Of a stretch of DNA of 5,122 bases, positions 1 to 5,093 are shown one piece after another. The notes below the pieces were generated by a model, which had not been told where the DNA came from, did no database searches, and saw only the letters and a program-made list of their open reading frames with translations. How positions within the stretch are numbered: position 1 is the first letter of the stretch; each line of letters starts with the position of its first letter. The position numbers and the translations under genes were made by a program. This DNA comes from Nitrospinae bacterium RIFCSPLOWO2_12_FULL_45_22 (GTDB lineage: Bacteria; 2-12-FULL-45-22): the NCBI GenBank assembly GCA_001803565.1, contig MHDQ01000261.1:1-5122 (forward strand), written 5' to 3'.

Positions 1-133
1 CCATACCCGTAGCACAGGCATTCTCTATCCGGGTGATGGGCATCTGACGTAACTTGAGGGGACCACCAATAGTCATACCCGTAATACCCGAGCCAATGGT
101 ACCTACCCAGGCAGCCTCATTTTTTGGCTCATA
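1..133 (-). pseudogene. Thiolase-family (acetyl-CoA acetyltransferase-like) fragment, N-terminus missing, runs off left edge
   Basis: The minus-strand frame whose codons include 116-118 reads PKNEAAWVGTIGSGITGM, then PLKLRQMPITRIENACATGM up to the window edge. The ENACATG block matches the loop around the nucleophilic cysteine of the thiolase superfamily (Cys codon at 14-16). PLKLRQMPITRIENACATG resembles SCP-x/lipid-transfer type thiolases, which handle acyl-CoA or acetoacetyl-CoA. Intact members have roughly 50 residues before this point. Here similarity fades around position 127-135, the frame closes at a stop codon at 155-157, and no ATG, GTG or TTG start lies between. The 68-residue gene ends just upstream at 148. 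I infer a 5'-truncated gene, perhaps broken by insertion of the upstream toxin pair. A frameshift restoring another N-terminus was not found. Whether the rest is intact cannot be seen. Confidence 0.7.
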
Positions 134-147
134 GATAATCCATATCC

Positions 148-354
148 TTATACCTTAGCCTTAGCCTTACTTCTGACAAGAGTAAAATTCTTTAGTCCCA
201 GTCTCTGACATAGTAGTTCAACATCTGGCTTATCTCTGGCTTTTATCCACTGTGCCGGAGTTATACCTTTTTCCATAATTTCTCTGTCAATTTCCTCACG
301 CAACTTATGAATCCATTCCAGGGATTTCGTCTCCCATTCTTTTTTATGTTTCAT
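148..354 (-). CDS. Small protein, putative antitoxin or partner of the PIN-domain toxin
   Basis: This is a 68-residue charged protein with no recognised named domain. It has a helical-looking, K/E-rich N-terminal half (EWIHKLREEIDREI, about residues 12-26), a PAQW segment near residue 33, a middle LCQRLGLKN segment, and a basic tail ending SKAKAKV. Its ATG lies inside the 3' end of the PIN gene (11-bp overlap, 344-354). A strong Shine-Dalgarno AGGAGGT at 369-363 sits 8 bases upstream, so translation is probably coupled to the toxin. Short proteins encoded directly behind PIN genes are commonly their antitoxins, which is the basis for the inferred role. The gene order (toxin first) is the reverse of classical vapBC. 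No DNA-binding motif is obvious, so autoregulation is not claimed. Confidence 0.7.
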   Translation of the reverse strand: MKHKKEWETKSLEWIHKLREEIDREIMEKGITPAQWIKARDKPDVELLCQRLGLKNFTLVRSKAKAKV

Positions 355-814
355 ATTCTATTACCTCCTCGGGTGAAACGATTTCTACCAAAGGAAATCC
401 TAGCCGTAAATTAACTGAATGTACTGCACGCCTTGTCCGAATATTTACTATATCACGGAAATTCCAAGATACCACTGCATCCACTCCATTAACCGTTGCC
501 ATAGCAAGATGGCGTAAATCTAATCTGGCCCCTTTGCGAATGAATCCTTCCCTCTCATATATATCCAGAAGGTCTGCGCATTCCTCATCTTCTGAGAGTA
601 TCTGAAGGGGAATCTTTCTGATTTCTTCCAGCAATTGGCCTCTCAAATTATCCAGTGGACATTGTTCAATCTCCTCAATGACGACGTTCGAAATAATGGC
701 AATATGTCTGCCTTCTAAAATTGAATTAAGAAGGATACGGGTTATTTCTACCCTGCGAGGCATTTCAGTATCAAATAATGCCCCAATTACAGAAGTATCC
801 AAATAAAGCCTCAT
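344..814 (-). CDS. PIN-domain ribonuclease, VapC-like toxin
   Basis: PIN domains are metal-dependent RNases; VapC-type toxins cut tRNA or rRNA to stop translation. Counting from the first possible Met at 817, the protein has 157 residues, normal for a single PIN domain. The acidic residues expected in the active site are visible: D7 in the N-terminal LYLDTS strand, E48/E49 in NVVIEEIE, D100 in RLDLRHLAMA, and N119/D122 in the SWNFRDI segment. Two adjacent ATG codons (817 and 814) are possible starts. I prefer 814 because GAGAGG at 825-820 lies only 2 bases from the first ATG and 5 from the second; the protein then begins MRLYLDTS. The gene is followed, with an 11-bp overlap, by a 68-residue gene. 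It lies outside the part of the array bounded by recognisable attC sites. The family assignment is firm; the toxin role is inferred from size and the partner gene. Confidence 0.88.
   Translation of the reverse strand: MRLYLDTSVIGALFDTEMPRRVEITRILLNSILEGRHIAIISNVVIEEIEQCPLDNLRGQLLEEIRKIPLQILSEDEECADLLDIYEREGFIRKGARLDLRHLAMATVNGVDAVVSWNFRDIVNIRTRRAVHSVNLRLGFPLVEIVSPEEVIEYET
363..369 (-). promoter_or_regulatory. Strong ribosome binding site inside the PIN gene
   Basis: AGGAGGT on the minus strand, 8 bases before the ATG at 354 and within the last codons of the PIN gene. It decides the start of the 68-residue gene and suggests the second protein is made at a higher rate than the first, whose site (GAGAGG) is weaker. 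More antitoxin than toxin would fit a toxin-antitoxin pair, but that part is inference. Confidence 0.7.
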
Positions 815-1142
815 CATATCCTCTCGATTATACTCCGTTAATCATCATTCCTACACAATGGTTCATGAAGATAACTGGACGGTCAATATCATTAATAGCT
901 AAAACTGGTAGCACCATCCATCGAACCCCATCTCATATCTTGACTGGTAGGATGGATCCCAAGCTTGTCCAATGTACTCCACAGTCCTTCAACCTCAAAC
1001 TGAGGGATAACTCGGTAACCACTGACTCATGATCAGTGAAAACACTTCCCTAAAATCCCGCTTCCTCGTAGAAAGCTAGACCTTATGATTGACTTTCAGG
1101 GGTGCCGGTTACTACCCGAAATCTATACCTTAGAAATGGGTA

Positions 1143-1316
1143 AGGGGGGACGTAGCCACCCCCTCCCCGTTGTCGCAATGGGGTCAATTCCCCATATTTA
1201 CCAGCGTGACCCTTTCGGTCACCTGGCGGCCCCTGCTAGATTGCCCCAAAAACAGAATAGGTGGGTAATGATATCGACCTTTGCCTGTTCACCAACAGGT
1301 GTTCTCTTGTCAACAC
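1143..1316. other. Cluster of perfect inverted repeats (possible structured RNA or transposon end)
   Basis: Hairpins follow one another closely. AGGGGG 1143-1148 pairs with 1159-1164. ATGGGG 1178-1183 pairs with 1190-1195. A 10-bp stem with one bulge joins CCAG(C)GTGACC at 1201-1211 to 1217-1226. CCTGTT 1284-1289 pairs with 1294-1299. GTGTT 1299-1303 pairs with AACAC 1312-1316. On the minus strand the 1212-1216 loop reads GAAAG, close to a GNRA loop, which slightly favours a minus-strand RNA. I do not recognise the family. Alternatives are the non-coding end of a transposon (the neighbouring transposase remnant points toward it) or a guide-like RNA of an IS element. Confidence 0.4.
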
Positions 1317-1339
1317 GATTACCGCAGATATTCGATAAG

Positions 1340-1476
1340 TAACTACGTCGAGACTGTTCTTAGCATTACATTGAGCCTTCCCCTGCTTTTCATAAATTAA
1401 CGTAGGAGAGAGCCTTGTGTGGCCGATACTCGTAAGCTAACTTCTCCCATGCGGTTACCTCTCCTACCTCTCTCTA
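1340..1476 (-). pseudogene. Remnant of a DDE (rve-type) transposase C-terminus
   Basis: Between stop codons at 1474-1476 and 1390-1392 the minus strand reads EVTAWEKLAYEYRPHKALSY. The pattern WE-x-(6)-YRPHxALxY is the typical C-terminal end of integrase-core transposases of the IS3 and IS481 groups, where it is normally followed by L-T-P-x-E. Here a stop follows five codons after KAL. The next frame continues as LIYEKQGKAQCNAKN, so a single-base frameshift probably broke the gene. No catalytic D-D-E part is present upstream: it is closed by a stop, and the remaining 100 bases up to attC-E show no transposase sequence. The remnant is nonfunctional. The IS end could lie near 1309-1316, but this is not established. 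Confidence 0.5.
1402..1467. repeat. 9-bp perfect inverted repeat within the transposase remnant
   Basis: GTAGGAGAG at 1402-1410 is matched by CTCTCCTAC at 1459-1467, with 48 bases between. The right arm is followed by another CTCTCTC run, so the pairing could slip. It may be chance within a degraded IS element or part of a fold; no function is assigned. Confidence 0.4.
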
Positions 1477-1574
1477 TTAGGTGTACCCTTTTGAGCTTCC
1501 ACAAAGAAACCCTCCTCCGGATACGCTGCAGACCCTAAAGAGCAAGAGCCAGGGATAGCCCCGTGCTCACCGCC

Positions 1575-1638
1575 GCATAACGCTCGCCTTCAGCGGCGCG
1601 CCGCTGTTTGGCGCGTCCGCTGGAAGGCGTTGTTAGAC
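1575..1638 (-). other. attC: Integron attC site (attC-E), last in the visible array
   Basis: On the minus strand R'' is GTCTAAC (1638-1632, a perfect RYYYAAC) and R' is GTTATGC (1581-1575). The arms pair as GAAGGC, CCGCT and GGCGCG with their complements around a short loop. Two bases on the R'' side of the minus strand (C and A; G and T on the opposite strand) stay unpaired, as expected for the extrahelical bases that let the integrase choose the folded bottom strand. The 369-residue gene ends 22 bases upstream. No cassette gene follows: the next DNA is transposon debris. Confidence 0.9.
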
Positions 1639-1659
1639 GCTATTCCTTTGCAAGGTGCT

Positions 1660-2769
1660 CTACAGATGCACCCACCACTCATCAGCCGATACTCTCTTAA
1701 TCACCCTCTTTTCATGAAGAAAACTGAGTATTCGGTCCACGTCTCCCCGCTTAATGAGACAGGTATCGCGATTGCGATCAAGGAAACGACACTTTTCTCG
1801 TCTCACGCTCGTCGCTTGTAACTCCTTTAAAAGCTCTGGCGCAGTCGGATACCTTCCCGTTCGCTTCCTCAACATCACGATTGCCTCGTACAAGCACACC
1901 TCCCCGGTCTCTTCCCTCAACCGCGTGACGTGAGACAGCACTTCTTTCACGGTCTCAGCTACGGCCACTATCTCGCCGGGCAGGTCCATACGGCACAGGG
2001 CAACTACTATTGGCACCAGTTTTGCACTGTCTTTCAGCAGTTGGAAGGCCGCTTCCGTGAGATTCACATGATAGTTGAAGGGTAAGCGTGCGTACAAGAG
2101 GTCGGGCTCGGCAGCGCACTTTAGCTCCATGCTACCACCCGCTTTCGCGACGAATCCTGGCACCGCCTTGGCGAGAGGATCAATATCGGCGGCATCAAAG
2201 TCCGTCTCCCGCCGCTGTGCAGAATCTCGGTCCAGCAACAAAGAAACCAGCTCCGTGTCTGCGCAGACCAGAGAATAGGGCGCCGAGTTCTCAGTTGAGG
2301 CACGTTCGCCCATCGATTCTAGCCACTGGGTAATCCCTTCAGAGACCAAGCGAGACGCGGACGCCGAGTACTCCTCTATCCGGCTGAGGAGTTCAGCGAA
2401 AGAATCAAGAGCTTCCTGAGCTGAAGTTGATCCAGCGCAGTAGTGTTGAAGGATCTCGCTGAGGCGCTCAATGAATTCATGGTAGACAACGTTGCCGGGA
2501 CACACATAGGAAAGCTGGCCGCCCAGACGGTCCGCATACTTCCGCGAGATCGTAGCGTGGTCGAGGCTCGGTAGCTCCAATTTAAGGCTGGCAAGGTCGC
2601 GGGAGAGGTCATGCAACAGGTTCCGGTAATCACGGTACTGGCCGGGCTCTTGGAAAAGTTCTAACTCTTTCGAGGCGCATGTGCGACAGCCTCGCAACAA
2701 TCTGGTCCAAGCGATAGCACCGCAGCTCTTGCAGCGATATTTTTCCAGCGTCTCTTCAGATGAGGTCAT
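1660..2769 (-). CDS. Cassette-encoded zinc-ribbon protein of unknown function
   Basis: This is a 369-residue protein. The N-terminus holds a CX2C-X11-CX2C zinc ribbon (C13, C16, C28, C31). The middle (about 45-350) is mostly helical in appearance, without membrane segments. The end (about 341-369, VDRILSFLHEKRVIKRVSADEWWVHL with tryptophans near the stop) looks like a small winged-helix-type hairpin, so a nucleic-acid-binding or assembly role is possible but unproven. I do not recognise the family. The start at 2769 is supported by GGAGAG at 2780-2775, 5 bases upstream, and by its place 16 bases after the R' end of attC-D, as usual for a cassette gene. The stop is 22 bases before attC-E, so this one gene fills its cassette (about 2791-1581). 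Composition is GC-rich, unlike the 241-residue gene next to it. Confidence 0.85.
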   Translation of the reverse strand: MTSSEETLEKYRCKSCGAIAWTRLLRGCRTCASKELELFQEPGQYRDYRNLLHDLSRDLASLKLELPSLDHATISRKYADRLGGQLSYVCPGNVVYHEFIERLSEILQHYCAGSTSAQEALDSFAELLSRIEEYSASASRLVSEGITQWLESMGERASTENSAPYSLVCADTELVSLLLDRDSAQRRETDFDAADIDPLAKAVPGFVAKAGGSMELKCAAEPDLLYARLPFNYHVNLTEAAFQLLKDSAKLVPIVVALCRMDLPGEIVAVAETVKEVLSHVTRLREETGEVCLYEAIVMLRKRTGRYPTAPELLKELQATSVRREKCRFLDRNRDTCLIKRGDVDRILSFLHEKRVIKRVSADEWWVHL

Positions 2770-2785
2770 AGTTTCTCTCCGTGGC

Positions 2786-2843
2786 GTCTAACGACTGAAA
2801 TCAGCGGTGGCTGTAAGCCATCCGCTGGAGTGATTTGTTCGAC
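2786..2843 (-). other. attC: Integron attC site (attC-D)
   Basis: On the minus strand R'' is GTCGAAC (2843-2837) and R' is GTTAGAC (2792-2786, a perfect GTTRRRY). The inner stem pairs CAGCGG-A-TGGCT with AGCCA-CCGCT around a very short loop; the extra A and the C before AGCGG are the unpaired bases on the R'' side. The R''-side arm AACAAATCACTCCAGCGGA is identical to that of attC-B, so the two sites belong to one attC subfamily. R'' begins 2 bases after the stop codon of the 241-residue gene, and R' lies 16 bases before the ATG of the 369-residue gene. Confidence 0.92.
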
Positions 2844-2845
2844 CT

Positions 2846-3571
2846 CTATCGTTTTCTCTTTTTAGGTTTTTTGAATTCTTTTACAAAAGCCATAATTAGA
2901 TTATCTATGATTTTAGGATATGAGGTATTAAATGAATTGTCATCGATCTTAAACAAATTTTTATCACATTTATCAAAAATATTTTTCATTTTAAGGCAAA
3001 TTTGCATAAAAAGGTTAAACTGCTTATCTTTTTCTGGCGGTAAATTAACTAAACGGTAATTGCCAGAATTAGTAAAAAAATCTTGATTTTCTTGAGTAAA
3101 AAATCTTACTGTGTATTGCCTATCTATTGGGGGAATCAAATTAGGTATTATATGCGCTAATGTCTTCGAGTGGGCAACTATCGTAGACTCAGAAATAGAA
3201 ACCCTTAAACCAAAATAAACATCTATTAATTTTGATAAGATATCTTTATATTCGTTTTGGTTTAAATTATCCCATCTTTTCTCTAAAAACCTTTCACAAG
3301 ATTCTTTATGGCTGATAATAGCTCTCTTAAAGTCATCAAATTCAACCATCTTGGCTTTGGTATCCTCTGGATCTCCCATCCTATGCATACCCCACGATGC
3401 CAATGTGGCATAAATCATTTCAATATGACGATCAGATAAGAAATTATTTCGTTGCTCTTTTATAGATTGAATATGGAAGTAGATTGACGGTCCACCAAAT
3501 TCTTTAAGAACGGCCAAGGACAATTGATAATAATGATTTAGGTTGCTGATTAGTAATTCTTCGTTATGCAT
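2846..3571 (-). CDS. Cassette-encoded protein of unknown function (241 residues, AT-rich)
   Basis: I do not recognise a named domain. Conserved-looking blocks are ATLASWGMHRMG (residues 55-66), EFDDFKRAI (77-85) and LIPPIDRQYTVRFF (145-158). The last is rich in invariant-type residues (P, D, R, Y) and may be part of an active or binding site. The C-terminus is strongly basic (KKPKKRKR, 234-241), suggesting nucleic-acid contact. No signal peptide or membrane segment is seen. The gene is visibly richer in A and T than its neighbours, consistent with a separate origin. The start at 3571 has AAAGAG about 5 bases upstream and lies 13 bases after the R'-like ATTAGAC; the stop is 2 bases before attC-D. 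It is the only gene of its cassette (about 3590-2792). Confidence 0.83.
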   Translation of the reverse strand: MHNEELLISNLNHYYQLSLAVLKEFGGPSIYFHIQSIKEQRNNFLSDRHIEMIYATLASWGMHRMGDPEDTKAKMVEFDDFKRAIISHKESCERFLEKRWDNLNQNEYKDILSKLIDVYFGLRVSISESTIVAHSKTLAHIIPNLIPPIDRQYTVRFFTQENQDFFTNSGNYRLVNLPPEKDKQFNLFMQICLKMKNIFDKCDKNLFKIDDNSFNTSYPKIIDNLIMAFVKEFKKPKKRKR

Positions 3572-3584
3572 TATTTCTCTTTAG

Positions 3585-3672
3585 GTCTAATGCCGAGTTG
3601 AGCGGAATGGCCGGAGCGTCAGACCGGAGGTCTGTAAGCGCAGGACATTTCCGCTCCAACGATTTGTTGGAG
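3585..3672 (-). other. attC: Diverged attC-like site (attC-C)
   Basis: On the minus strand R'' is CTCCAAC (3672-3666), followed by AAATC and AGCGGA as in attC-B and attC-D. R' reads ATTAGAC (3591-3585): it has A where the invariant G of GTTRRRY should be. The arms GAGCGGAA(A)TG and CATTCCGCTC pair with one extra A on the R'' side, and an inner hairpin CAGACC/GGTCTG (3620-3625, 3629-3634) forms the variable end. At 88 bp it is longer than its neighbours. The position, just before the 241-residue gene and with the same spacing as other cassettes, supports the call; the changed core base and long inner part lower confidence. Confidence 0.6.
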
Positions 3673-3729
3673 GCGCGCGAATCGCGGCGCGCCGGAAACA
3701 AATTGTTGGAGTTTACTCAACTCGGCATT
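3589..3729. repeat. 14-bp perfect inverted repeat closing a three-arm structure
   Basis: AATGCCGAGTTGAG at 3589-3602 is the exact complement of CTCAACTCGGCATT at 3716-3729. Between them are two further strong stems: the attC-C arms (3600-3609 with 3646-3656, one bulge) and a 7+7+7-bp stem made of 3654-3660/3705-3711, 3662-3668/3697-3703 and 3672-3678/3687-3693. The latter is interrupted by one G-T position and a 3x3 mismatch. As single-stranded DNA or RNA this segment would fold into a junction with two arms. Confidence 0.75.
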
Positions 3730-3754
3730 GCAGGCGCGCGCAGCGCGCCTGCAA
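3591..3754 (-). other. ORF-less integron cassette (about 164 bp)
   Basis: The segment runs from the recombination point of attC-B (after 3755) to the presumed point of attC-C (A/TT at 3591). It carries no plausible reading frame and is made almost wholly of inverted repeats, about half of it being attC-C. Gene-less cassettes are known in large arrays, some thought to supply promoters or only an attC. No promoter could be recognised here. The alternative is that it is simply a structured leader of the 241-residue gene. Confidence 0.5.
3728..3754. repeat. 12-bp perfect GC-rich hairpin at a cassette boundary
   Basis: TTGCAGGCGCGC at 3728-3739 pairs exactly with GCGCGCCTGCAA at 3743-3754, loop of 3 bases. 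The right arm begins exactly at the predicted cut point of attC-B (GTT on the minus strand), so the R' box of attC-B is mirrored 20 bases on. A hairpin this strong could act as a transcription stop (no T-run is seen) or block recombination at the site. Confidence 0.8.
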
Positions 3755-3809
3755 CGCCTGAAGTCAGCGGCGGCGGCTCCTCGCCGTCCGCTGGAGTGAT
3801 TTGTTATGA
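3749..3809 (-). other. attC: Integron attC site (attC-B)
   Basis: On the minus strand R'' is TCATAAC (3809-3803) and R' is GTTGCAG (3755-3749). The stem CAGCGG-A-CGGCG pairs with CGCCG-CCGCT around a 6-base loop, with the extra A and a C unpaired on the R'' side. The outer arm AACAAATCACTCCAGCGGA is shared with attC-D. The stop codon of the 299-residue gene lies 7 bases upstream. R' ends directly in a GC-rich hairpin. Confidence 0.9.
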
Positions 3810-3816
3810 GTTTCCT

Positions 3817-4716
3817 TTATTTCTGTAAATTATCTGCTTGTTCAATTAGTTTACGAATGAAGACAGCGTCCATCTCACTGGCTGCCAAGTGAAGCTCAGG
3901 ATAGTTGCCCCACCCTTCCGGTATCATTTTTCCGTCTCTATCTCTGTAATTTCCTTTCCGCAACCAAACCGTAATGTTTCGCTTGGTAGGTTTCACCCAT
4001 ATCAAGCCTTTTCCTCCGGTGTAAAAGCACATCATGGATTTCTTTATTCTTTCCTCAACATCCTGATTAACTTGATATACTATCTGCTTAATCAGCATGT
4101 AAGCTTCCCTGACCTGGTCTTCAACCCCGTTAAGTATGTCGTCCTCACTGAATACTTTGATTTCAGTGCCGACATTCTTAATAGCTTTACTTGCCTTCGA
4201 GATTGAACCTAAACTTGCTGTGGTCCGTTGAGATTTTATCTTGTTGTAAGCAATAGTGTCATTAGAATACAAATGTACTTCCCACAATTCAATAGGAAGA
4301 TCCTTGAAGTTTACAGCTTCTATTTGGTAAGGTGTAAAGGAGGGAGATACAAAAATTACCTTTGATTGGGACCAGTCAAAATCGGCTTTTTTGGAAGATG
4401 ATCCTGCATTCTCGTTATATGCAAGCACGAAATCTGCCTTGTTATTCAGCATTAGGGATAAGTAAGCGTATCCTTGGTCGATTATGCTGAAATTTTGATC
4501 CTTTTTGTATTCGATTATCACAAATGATTTAGCCTCCTCGTCGAAACCAATTGTATCTAGGCGAAAATTCCCGACCTGAAACTCCGAACACACAAACTTT
4601 AGTCCGAAAATCAAGTCAAGGTTCTTTTCAGTCATTGTCTGGATATCTTTTTCTCTATTAAGAGAGAGGAGTTTTATGGGACTCAACGACCCGCCTGAAA
4701 TACCAAATAAAGGCAT
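3817..4716 (-). CDS. Predicted PD-(D/E)XK nuclease-like protein with DUF5655-type C-terminus
   Basis: This is a 299-residue soluble protein. Residues about 20-100 (EKDIQTMTEKNLDLIFGL, then the core) have the layout of NucS/DUF91-like restriction-fold nucleases: D54 in FRLDTIGF, E69 and K71 in FVIIEYKK, and Q81 in IDQGYAYL match the D-ExK-Q metal site. Residues about 190-297 (YTGGKGLIWVKPTKRN, GNYPELHLAASEMDAVFIRKLIEQA) match my memory of the DUF5655 domain often joined to this nuclease part. DNA cleavage or binding is therefore likely; a role in defence or repair is inference. The start at 4716 has AGGAGG at 4727-4722, 5 bases upstream. It is the second gene of its cassette, after a 73-residue membrane protein; the stop lies 7 bases before attC-B. 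Confidence 0.85.
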   Translation of the reverse strand: MPLFGISGGSLSPIKLLSLNREKDIQTMTEKNLDLIFGLKFVCSEFQVGNFRLDTIGFDEEAKSFVIIEYKKDQNFSIIDQGYAYLSLMLNNKADFVLAYNENAGSSSKKADFDWSQSKVIFVSPSFTPYQIEAVNFKDLPIELWEVHLYSNDTIAYNKIKSQRTTASLGSISKASKAIKNVGTEIKVFSEDDILNGVEDQVREAYMLIKQIVYQVNQDVEERIKKSMMCFYTGGKGLIWVKPTKRNITVWLRKGNYRDRDGKMIPEGWGNYPELHLAASEMDAVFIRKLIEQADNLQK

Positions 4717-4802
4717 TTATTCCTCCTTATTCAACTTCTTACTCGTAAACGGTATTTGGGTGTGGCTGATGATTGCGCCCAGGCCGTGATAGTCCGGTGT
4801 GT
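4717..4802 (-). other. Intergenic gap within cassette 2
   Basis: There are 86 bases between the two genes of this cassette. There is no attC: neither R-box pair nor stem is visible. It ends in the ribosome binding site AGGAGG of the nuclease-like gene. The minus strand stays open in one frame for about 30 codons up to a TAA directly before the next ATG, but no start or family supports a gene. Confidence 0.5.
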
Positions 4803-5024
4803 CTACCACTGAAGGGCTGTGCCGATGCTCACCAACACCAATCCACCCCAAAACAACGGCCTGACAATGGCAGTTTGAGTGGGAGCCCATAGCTTCTTGT
4901 CAGGATCGATTTCTTTCAATATCTTTTCGTCATACTGGCTCAGCGTTCTGATAGAGAATGCCAAAGATGCTGTTCCGACGAGGACGACGATAAGCCCGAT
5001 TTGTTGACGAGTAATAAATGTCAT
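4803..5024 (-). CDS. Small two-helix membrane protein (73 residues), cassette-encoded
   Basis: Two hydrophobic segments are clear: about 9-25 (IGLIVVLVGTASLAFSI) and about 53-71 (IVRPLFWGGLVLVSIGTALQ). A polar stretch of roughly 27 residues with DEKILKEIDPDKK joins them. It is probably an inner-membrane protein with both ends on the same side; no function is recognised. The start at 5024 has GAGGT at 5035-5031, 6 bases upstream, partly overlapping the R' box of attC-A, so the cassette brings its own ribosome binding site at its very edge. It is the first gene of cassette 2, followed by the nuclease-like gene. Small membrane proteins are frequent in integron cassettes. Confidence 0.8.
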   Translation of the reverse strand: MTFITRQQIGLIVVLVGTASLAFSIRTLSQYDEKILKEIDPDKKLWAPTQTAIVRPLFWGGLVLVSIGTALQW

Positions 5025-5033
5025 CGAGTTACC

Positions 5034-5093
5034 TCATAACGATATAACTAAGCTGTCGGGCTTTGCCCAGTCAGCTTGAGTGCCTTGTTAGCG
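5034..5093 (-). other. attC: Integron attC site (attC-A)
   Basis: On the minus strand R'' is CGCTAAC (5093-5087) and R' is GTTATGA (5040-5034). The inner stem AAGCTG/CAGCTT and GGGC/GCCC closes a 3-base loop; the R'' side has one base more than the other side, the same orientation as the other sites. The arm AACAAGGCACTCAAGCTGAC has the same layout as attC-B and attC-D but a different L box. R' lies 9 bases before the ATG of the 73-residue gene. Confidence 0.8.

Follow-up and report, generated by a model that had tools for sequence, protein, structure and literature searches.

The window analysed here is a complete contig (C261, 5122 bp) of a MAG that spans 3.67 Mb and is 85% complete, and from position 1575 rightwards it carries a series of attC sites and genes, all of the array genes lying on the minus strand (Table 1). 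Cassette boundaries were set by the G^TT crossover, recombination by IntI between the G and the TT of the R' box being an established mechanism (PMC2727003). Read in this way, the array would comprise four cassettes, of which three bear genes and one is gene-less, and at the right there is the end of a further, fifth cassette that is cut by the contig end.

Table 1. Positions of attC sites, cassettes and array genes in the window, with the basis for each; bit scores and E values of attC sites are from the attC covariance model described in the text
Feature	Position	Strand	Basis
attC site A, distal end of visible array	1575-1638	-	46.6 bits, E 2.8e-9
attC site B	2786-2843	-	46.6 bits, E 2.7e-9
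attC site C	3749-3809	-	32.9 bits, E 3.3e-6
attC site E	5034-5093	-	30.6 bits, E 1.1e-5
Cassette 1 (1285 bp), membrane protein and nuclease	3755-5039	-	G^TT crossovers of sites E and C
Cassette 2 (164 bp), gene-less, all-attC	3591-3754	-	98% copy at C304:4074-4241, flanks changing at crossovers
Cassette 3 (799 bp), 241-aa gene	2792-3590	-	End of cassette 2 and crossover of site B
Cassette 4 (1211 bp), 369-aa gene	1581-2791	-	Crossovers of sites B and A
73-aa predicted membrane protein	4803-5024	-	ORF
299-aa PD-(D/E)XK-type nuclease, PADLOC candidate PDC-S18	3817-4716	-	PADLOC E 1.1e-98
241-aa protein, function unassigned	2846-3571	-	Homologues in G169 and G226 attC-flanked
369-aa protein, possible N-terminal zinc ribbon (CxxC...CxxC)	1660-2769	-	Weak Pfam only

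The preliminary description had listed a predicted nuclease, a membrane protein and two proteins of unassigned function as the cassette genes. This list stands, except that the membrane protein and the nuclease belong to a single cassette, with no detectable attC between their genes. The 73-aa predicted membrane protein matched no family. Most of the nuclease (residues 1-261) is covered by the PDC-S18 profile; its matches to NucS_C and DUF5655 are weak, and residues D54, E69 and K71 do not vary among four homologues. Because no attC was detectable near the homologues' loci in other genomes (L128-L131), the gene family also lives outside integrons, and what sets the present candidate apart from PDC-S18 as listed in PADLOC is that it is a cassette gene, preceded within its cassette by a small membrane protein. 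The gene for the 241-aa protein has a homologue in G169 (58%), where an attC begins 2 bp past the stop codon, and another in G226 (about 40-42%), where an attC ends 27 bp ahead of the start; it is therefore a cassette gene in other genomes too. Its product had no match among plasmids; for the 369-aa protein, neither the other 385 genomes searched nor plasmids yielded a homologue; and PHROGs returned no match.

The attC sites were scored with a covariance model built from 16 seeds, none of which came from the window (five are from other contigs of the MAG and eleven from beside intI genes of named genomes). In this model 91.5% of L-stem cells are paired, and the covariation score is 0.525, as against 0.165 when shuffled; the hand-made attC scanners were noisy, served only to find seeds and were replaced by the model, whose filters were switched off for the search of the window. 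Five minus-strand attC sites had been claimed in the preliminary description, with an attC covariance model named as one means of checking them. Four of these positions are matched by our independently trained model (30.6-46.6 bits, E 1.1e-5 to 2.7e-9), whereas the fifth, at about 3585-3755, reaches a mere 13.9 bits and forms part of the gene-less cassette. The best plus-strand score in the window is 7.0 bits, and a search of the window against Rfam at E<=1 returned nothing.

Pairing of R'' with R' and of L'' with L', together with extrahelical bases on the bottom strand, was found both in the model alignments and in the sequence. At each canonical site of the four, L'' has two unpaired bases on the bottom strand, a G and a T that follows 6-7 nt later; this is the pair of extrahelical bases already known for attC (PMC2727003). 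The bottom-strand fold of site A has a z score of -6.6. The short distances between genes and sites were as reported: in the sequence, stop codon and R'' are 2-21 bases apart, and R' and start codon 9-16 bases. Beyond the window, the model produced 53 matches at E<=1 (i.e., about 50) in the MAG itself, while 8 of the 11 other genomes searched had no match and the remaining three include the lineage relative G001. An ordinary gene cluster, in which palindromes of another kind (terminators, REP elements) or chance resemblances pass for attC sites, might be suggested by the attC-free surroundings of the nuclease family elsewhere, but this view is almost certainly wrong, given E values down to 2.7e-9 from a window-independent model, their restriction to one strand and to cassette boundaries, the wealth of further attC sites in the MAG, and the attC sites that flank the 241-aa gene in other genomes. 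The reading of the stretch as a minus-strand integron cassette array is thus supported, and the observation behind it confirmed.

The stretch had been taken for the interior of an array, which holds for its right end but not for its left. On the right, the array is cut by the contig end at 5122, the last 24 bases of which match no other contig; on the left, the model found no attC in window 1-1574, and the array therefore ends distally at about 1575. Neither intI nor attI, which a complete integron has beside its array, occurs on the contig, which is therefore a CALIN-like fragment; a CALIN has at least two attC sites in the same orientation, and the four minus-strand sites here have E values of 1e-5 or better. 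No intI is visible to the right of the array because the contig ends there, and the array is split from its intI platform by assembly; the genome bins are fragmented MAGs. Like the chromosomal arrays and CALINs described with IntegronFinder 2.0 (PMC9024848), the array has tandem attC sites in one orientation, short and mostly one-gene cassettes, genes of unassigned function, and intI elsewhere in the genome; it differs in that its contig lacks intI and in its origin from an isolated uncultured lineage with many broken intI copies. The array is of a known kind, and what it adds to the class is an isolated uncultured lineage (the order of the MAG had just one other genome among those searched) that is rich in integrons and broken integrases, with a phage-defence candidate among its cassettes.

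Several features lie to the left of the array. Window 1-154 encodes on its minus strand a fragment, GPLKLRQMPITRIENACATGM, that starts after a stop codon and had no Pfam match; we take it to be thiolase-like. The first 73-96 bases of this fragment recur with 98-100% identity at the ends of contigs C213 and C240, so that the contig break probably lies in a repeat. Just past the array, at 148-817, a weakly matching PIN-domain protein (344-817) overlaps a 68-aa ORF (148-354), and the arrangement of the two makes a toxin-antitoxin pair possible. A 450-bp segment devoid of minus-strand ORFs (1135-1583) begins exactly at the crossover of site A and recurs with 82% identity at C131:9309-9782, from a GCGTTATGCG boundary, and the adjoining 146 bp (986-1131) recur at C204:624-768. 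This segment could be a gene-less cassette minus its attC, or array-end sequence; when 980-1590 was searched against plasmids and 145 genomes, it was found in its own genome only, and with a fold z score of -2.2 we make no claim that it is a structured RNA.

The gene-less cassette has a second copy in the MAG: window 3588-3755 corresponds to the first unit beside the intI gene of contig C304. The two copies have in common a G^TT at one end and an A^TT at the other, and outside these points their flanks differ, the change falling exactly there. The preceding flank is attC site C in the window and a presumed attI in C304, and the next bases are in both cases the TTRRRY start of the following cassette. 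The unit is thus bounded by crossovers and occupies more than one array position, as a gene-less cassette does, and it has no minus-strand ORF of 50 aa, the sole ORF that overlaps it being a plus-strand frame that runs across its boundary. A simple palindromic attC at 3654-3711, which we had considered, was ruled out, since the second copy shows the unit to be 3591-3754.

In its build, the cassette consists of a hairpin that joins R' and R'', an outer stem, a nested inner attC and an end that has ATT for GTT. R'', L'', L' and R' are all present within it, and the nested fold is unusually stable (z -9.3 over 149 nt). The GTT core of R' is near-invariant in attC; in the window and C304 copies it is replaced by ATT, matched by AAT in R''. 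Because it scores only 13.9 bits and its ATT core departs from GTT, the window copy may be inactive.

If the 164-bp unit were a non-autonomous transposable element (a MITE, an IS200/605-type palindromic element or a derivative of IS1111-attC) that targets attC or attI, its palindromic, gene-less nature and its multiple copies, two or three of them in one genome, would be readily understood. However, neither copy shows a target-site duplication or end-to-end terminal inverted repeats, as a MITE or an insertion sequence would; both ends coincide with the IntI crossover at two different sites; and the unit has R'', L'', L' and R' boxes of its own, with pairs that covary between lineages. This account is therefore very improbable: crossover-matched ends without a target-site duplication fit a gene-less cassette inserted by IntI, not a MITE.

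The gene-less cassette belongs to a family that extends to other genomes. BLAST against 386 genomes recovered relatives in G087, G227 and G289, which on reading have the same parts and share a core of 73-86% identity over about 100 bp, with a common GCGCTGCGC loop region. A covariance model of this core, trained on 8 copies and run on 70 genomes, most of them integron-bearing, had matches at E<=0.01 in 8 genomes: the MAG itself (G000), G227 and G386 (three copies each), G387 (two), G391, G289 and G087, and G396, whose single match is weak (E 0.005). Outside the training set were the copies in G387 (contig C239), G391, G386 and G396 and the one on contig C17 of the MAG, and of these the C17 and G386 matches are modest (33-43 bits). 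The family is present in at least six other genomes, namely G227, G289, G087 and three named Deltaproteobacteria/Thermodesulfobacteriota MAGs (G386, G387 and G391 are the genomes of named loci L039, L040 and L044).

Every copy that we examined in full starts at G^TT and has R' and R'' as the arms of a short hairpin, whose loop region is in most cases GCGCTGCGC; immediately internal to R'' and R' comes an outer stem, which usually encloses another attC-like R''. Both sides have changed at 5 pairs of the hairpin. In the outer stems, 12-15 bases are paired when each stem has its own two arms, and 8.9 on average (maximum 14) when an arm is exchanged for that of another lineage. In two lineages (the window and C304 copies, and G391), AAT/ATT takes the place of AAC/GTT as crossover pair, both sides having changed; the relatives in G227, G289 and G387 have the GTT core. 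A gene-less unit adjoins an intact intI in C304 and G289 and an intI remnant on C17; attC matches in the surroundings of the copies in G087 and G391 score weakly (13-17 bits). Searches of the loci with related cassettes against Rfam returned nothing at gathering score and hence no known RNA family, and the window cassette had no match among plasmids.

It might be supposed that such units are the remnants of gene cassettes, in which independent gene losses have fused R' to R''. The body between the two boxes is indeed merely a short hairpin, and shorter versions, of about 56 bp, exist in G386, but a core that is so alike across lineages, including its loop, is not expected from independent deletions, and we consider this origin improbable.

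A regulatory role of the gene-less cassette for its neighbours is possible. Promoter activity was detected in most of 29 gene-less Vibrio cassettes tested (PMC11014356), and the present one might similarly be kept as a promoter, insulator or small RNA acting on neighbouring cassettes. A scan for sigma-70 promoters and terminators found no such pattern in it, although in silico prediction is reported to fail for gene-less cassettes (PMC11014356); and what is conserved in the family, the fold and the R boxes, is what recombination alone predicts. Maintenance as a regulatory element is rather unlikely to be the explanation.

Taken together, window 1575-5093 is very probably the distal part of a chromosomal integron array on the minus strand and includes a member of a recurrent family of gene-less, all-attC cassettes. 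We infer that the folded bottom (plus) strand of every attC is the substrate on which IntI excises and inserts cassettes at G^TT (the mechanism in PMC2727003), and the enzyme could be supplied by the full-length copies of the MAG itself, on C304 and C243. In this family the cassette is one large attC: R'' and the R' part found at the 5' end of the cassette pair as arms of a short GC-rich hairpin, and everything downstream of this hairpin forms a nested L stem that terminates in R'. The gene-less cassette is most likely spread by IntI like any ordinary substrate. Since it is as a folded single bottom strand that attC recombines, a cassette that consists of one long and very stable fold should expose its site readily and serve IntI well as a substrate, and this stability of the single-strand fold may make the cassette efficient and possibly selfish.

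Gene-less cassettes as such are known from Vibrio and from oral integrons (PMC11014356, PMC6557892), and they too are bounded by attC crossovers and contain no gene. In the present family, however, the body is only a hairpin that joins R' and R'', a single nested attC takes up nearly all of the cassette, and distant genomes share a core that is conserved in sequence. Large branched attC sites, such as the V. cholerae repeats (PMC2727003), are comparable in their long, complex and branched variable terminal structure, but here there is a second R''-like box inside the site, so that a single R' serves two R'', and AAT/ATT can stand as the crossover pair. Our search of the open-access literature found the gene-less Vibrio and oral cassettes but no hairpin-joined family, and the present one looks like an undescribed variant. 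On balance, we lean toward regarding it as an undescribed, horizontally spread family of attC-only cassettes, with a hairpin-joined R'/R'' followed by a nested double attC, that is minimal, possibly selfish or regulatory, sometimes placed beside intI, and able to use AAT/ATT. The family can be recognised by sequence across distant genomes, some of its members (about 56-210 bp) may be among the smallest cassettes, and it offers natural tests of whether IntI recombination requires the G of GTT and whether a cassette can persist without a gene. Several very short gene-less units occur on contig C28 of G386 (L158 1256-1350, 1959-2054 and 2651-2758), and one G386 unit that was read fully, of about 56 bp, comprises the hairpin and a minimal attC alone, directly after another attC.

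The MAG has two full-length intI genes above the family cut-off, on C304 and C243, and many intI fragments. The array beside the C304 gene has six minus-strand attC matches, two of them weak. The IntI encoded on C304 is 454 aa long, with an N-terminal extension of about 139 aa, most of which is shared by relatives in genomes of Deltaproteobacteria/Thermodesulfobacteriota (up to 72% identity), Nitrospirota, Fibrobacteres, Chromatiaceae and Verrucomicrobia. An IntI subfamily with an N-terminal extension of roughly 100-140 aa, possibly a second core-binding domain, is found in several phyla (L017 4451-4865; L139 2954-3250; L039-L069). Two intI copies of the MAG, C136:20148-20653 and C317:8631-9136 (L021, L022), are 83% identical in DNA and have a common internal deletion of profile positions 125-268, which takes out the IntI-specific region.

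Group II introns in integrons are already known (PMC7923331). One such intron in the MAG, beginning with GTGTGTGCCGGGCATGG, lies at C17:17230-17404 (L019 3231-3405) and occupies the exact place expected for the R' box of an attC; it matches RF02001. A related copy is situated at another attC on C140 (L025 2947-3172).
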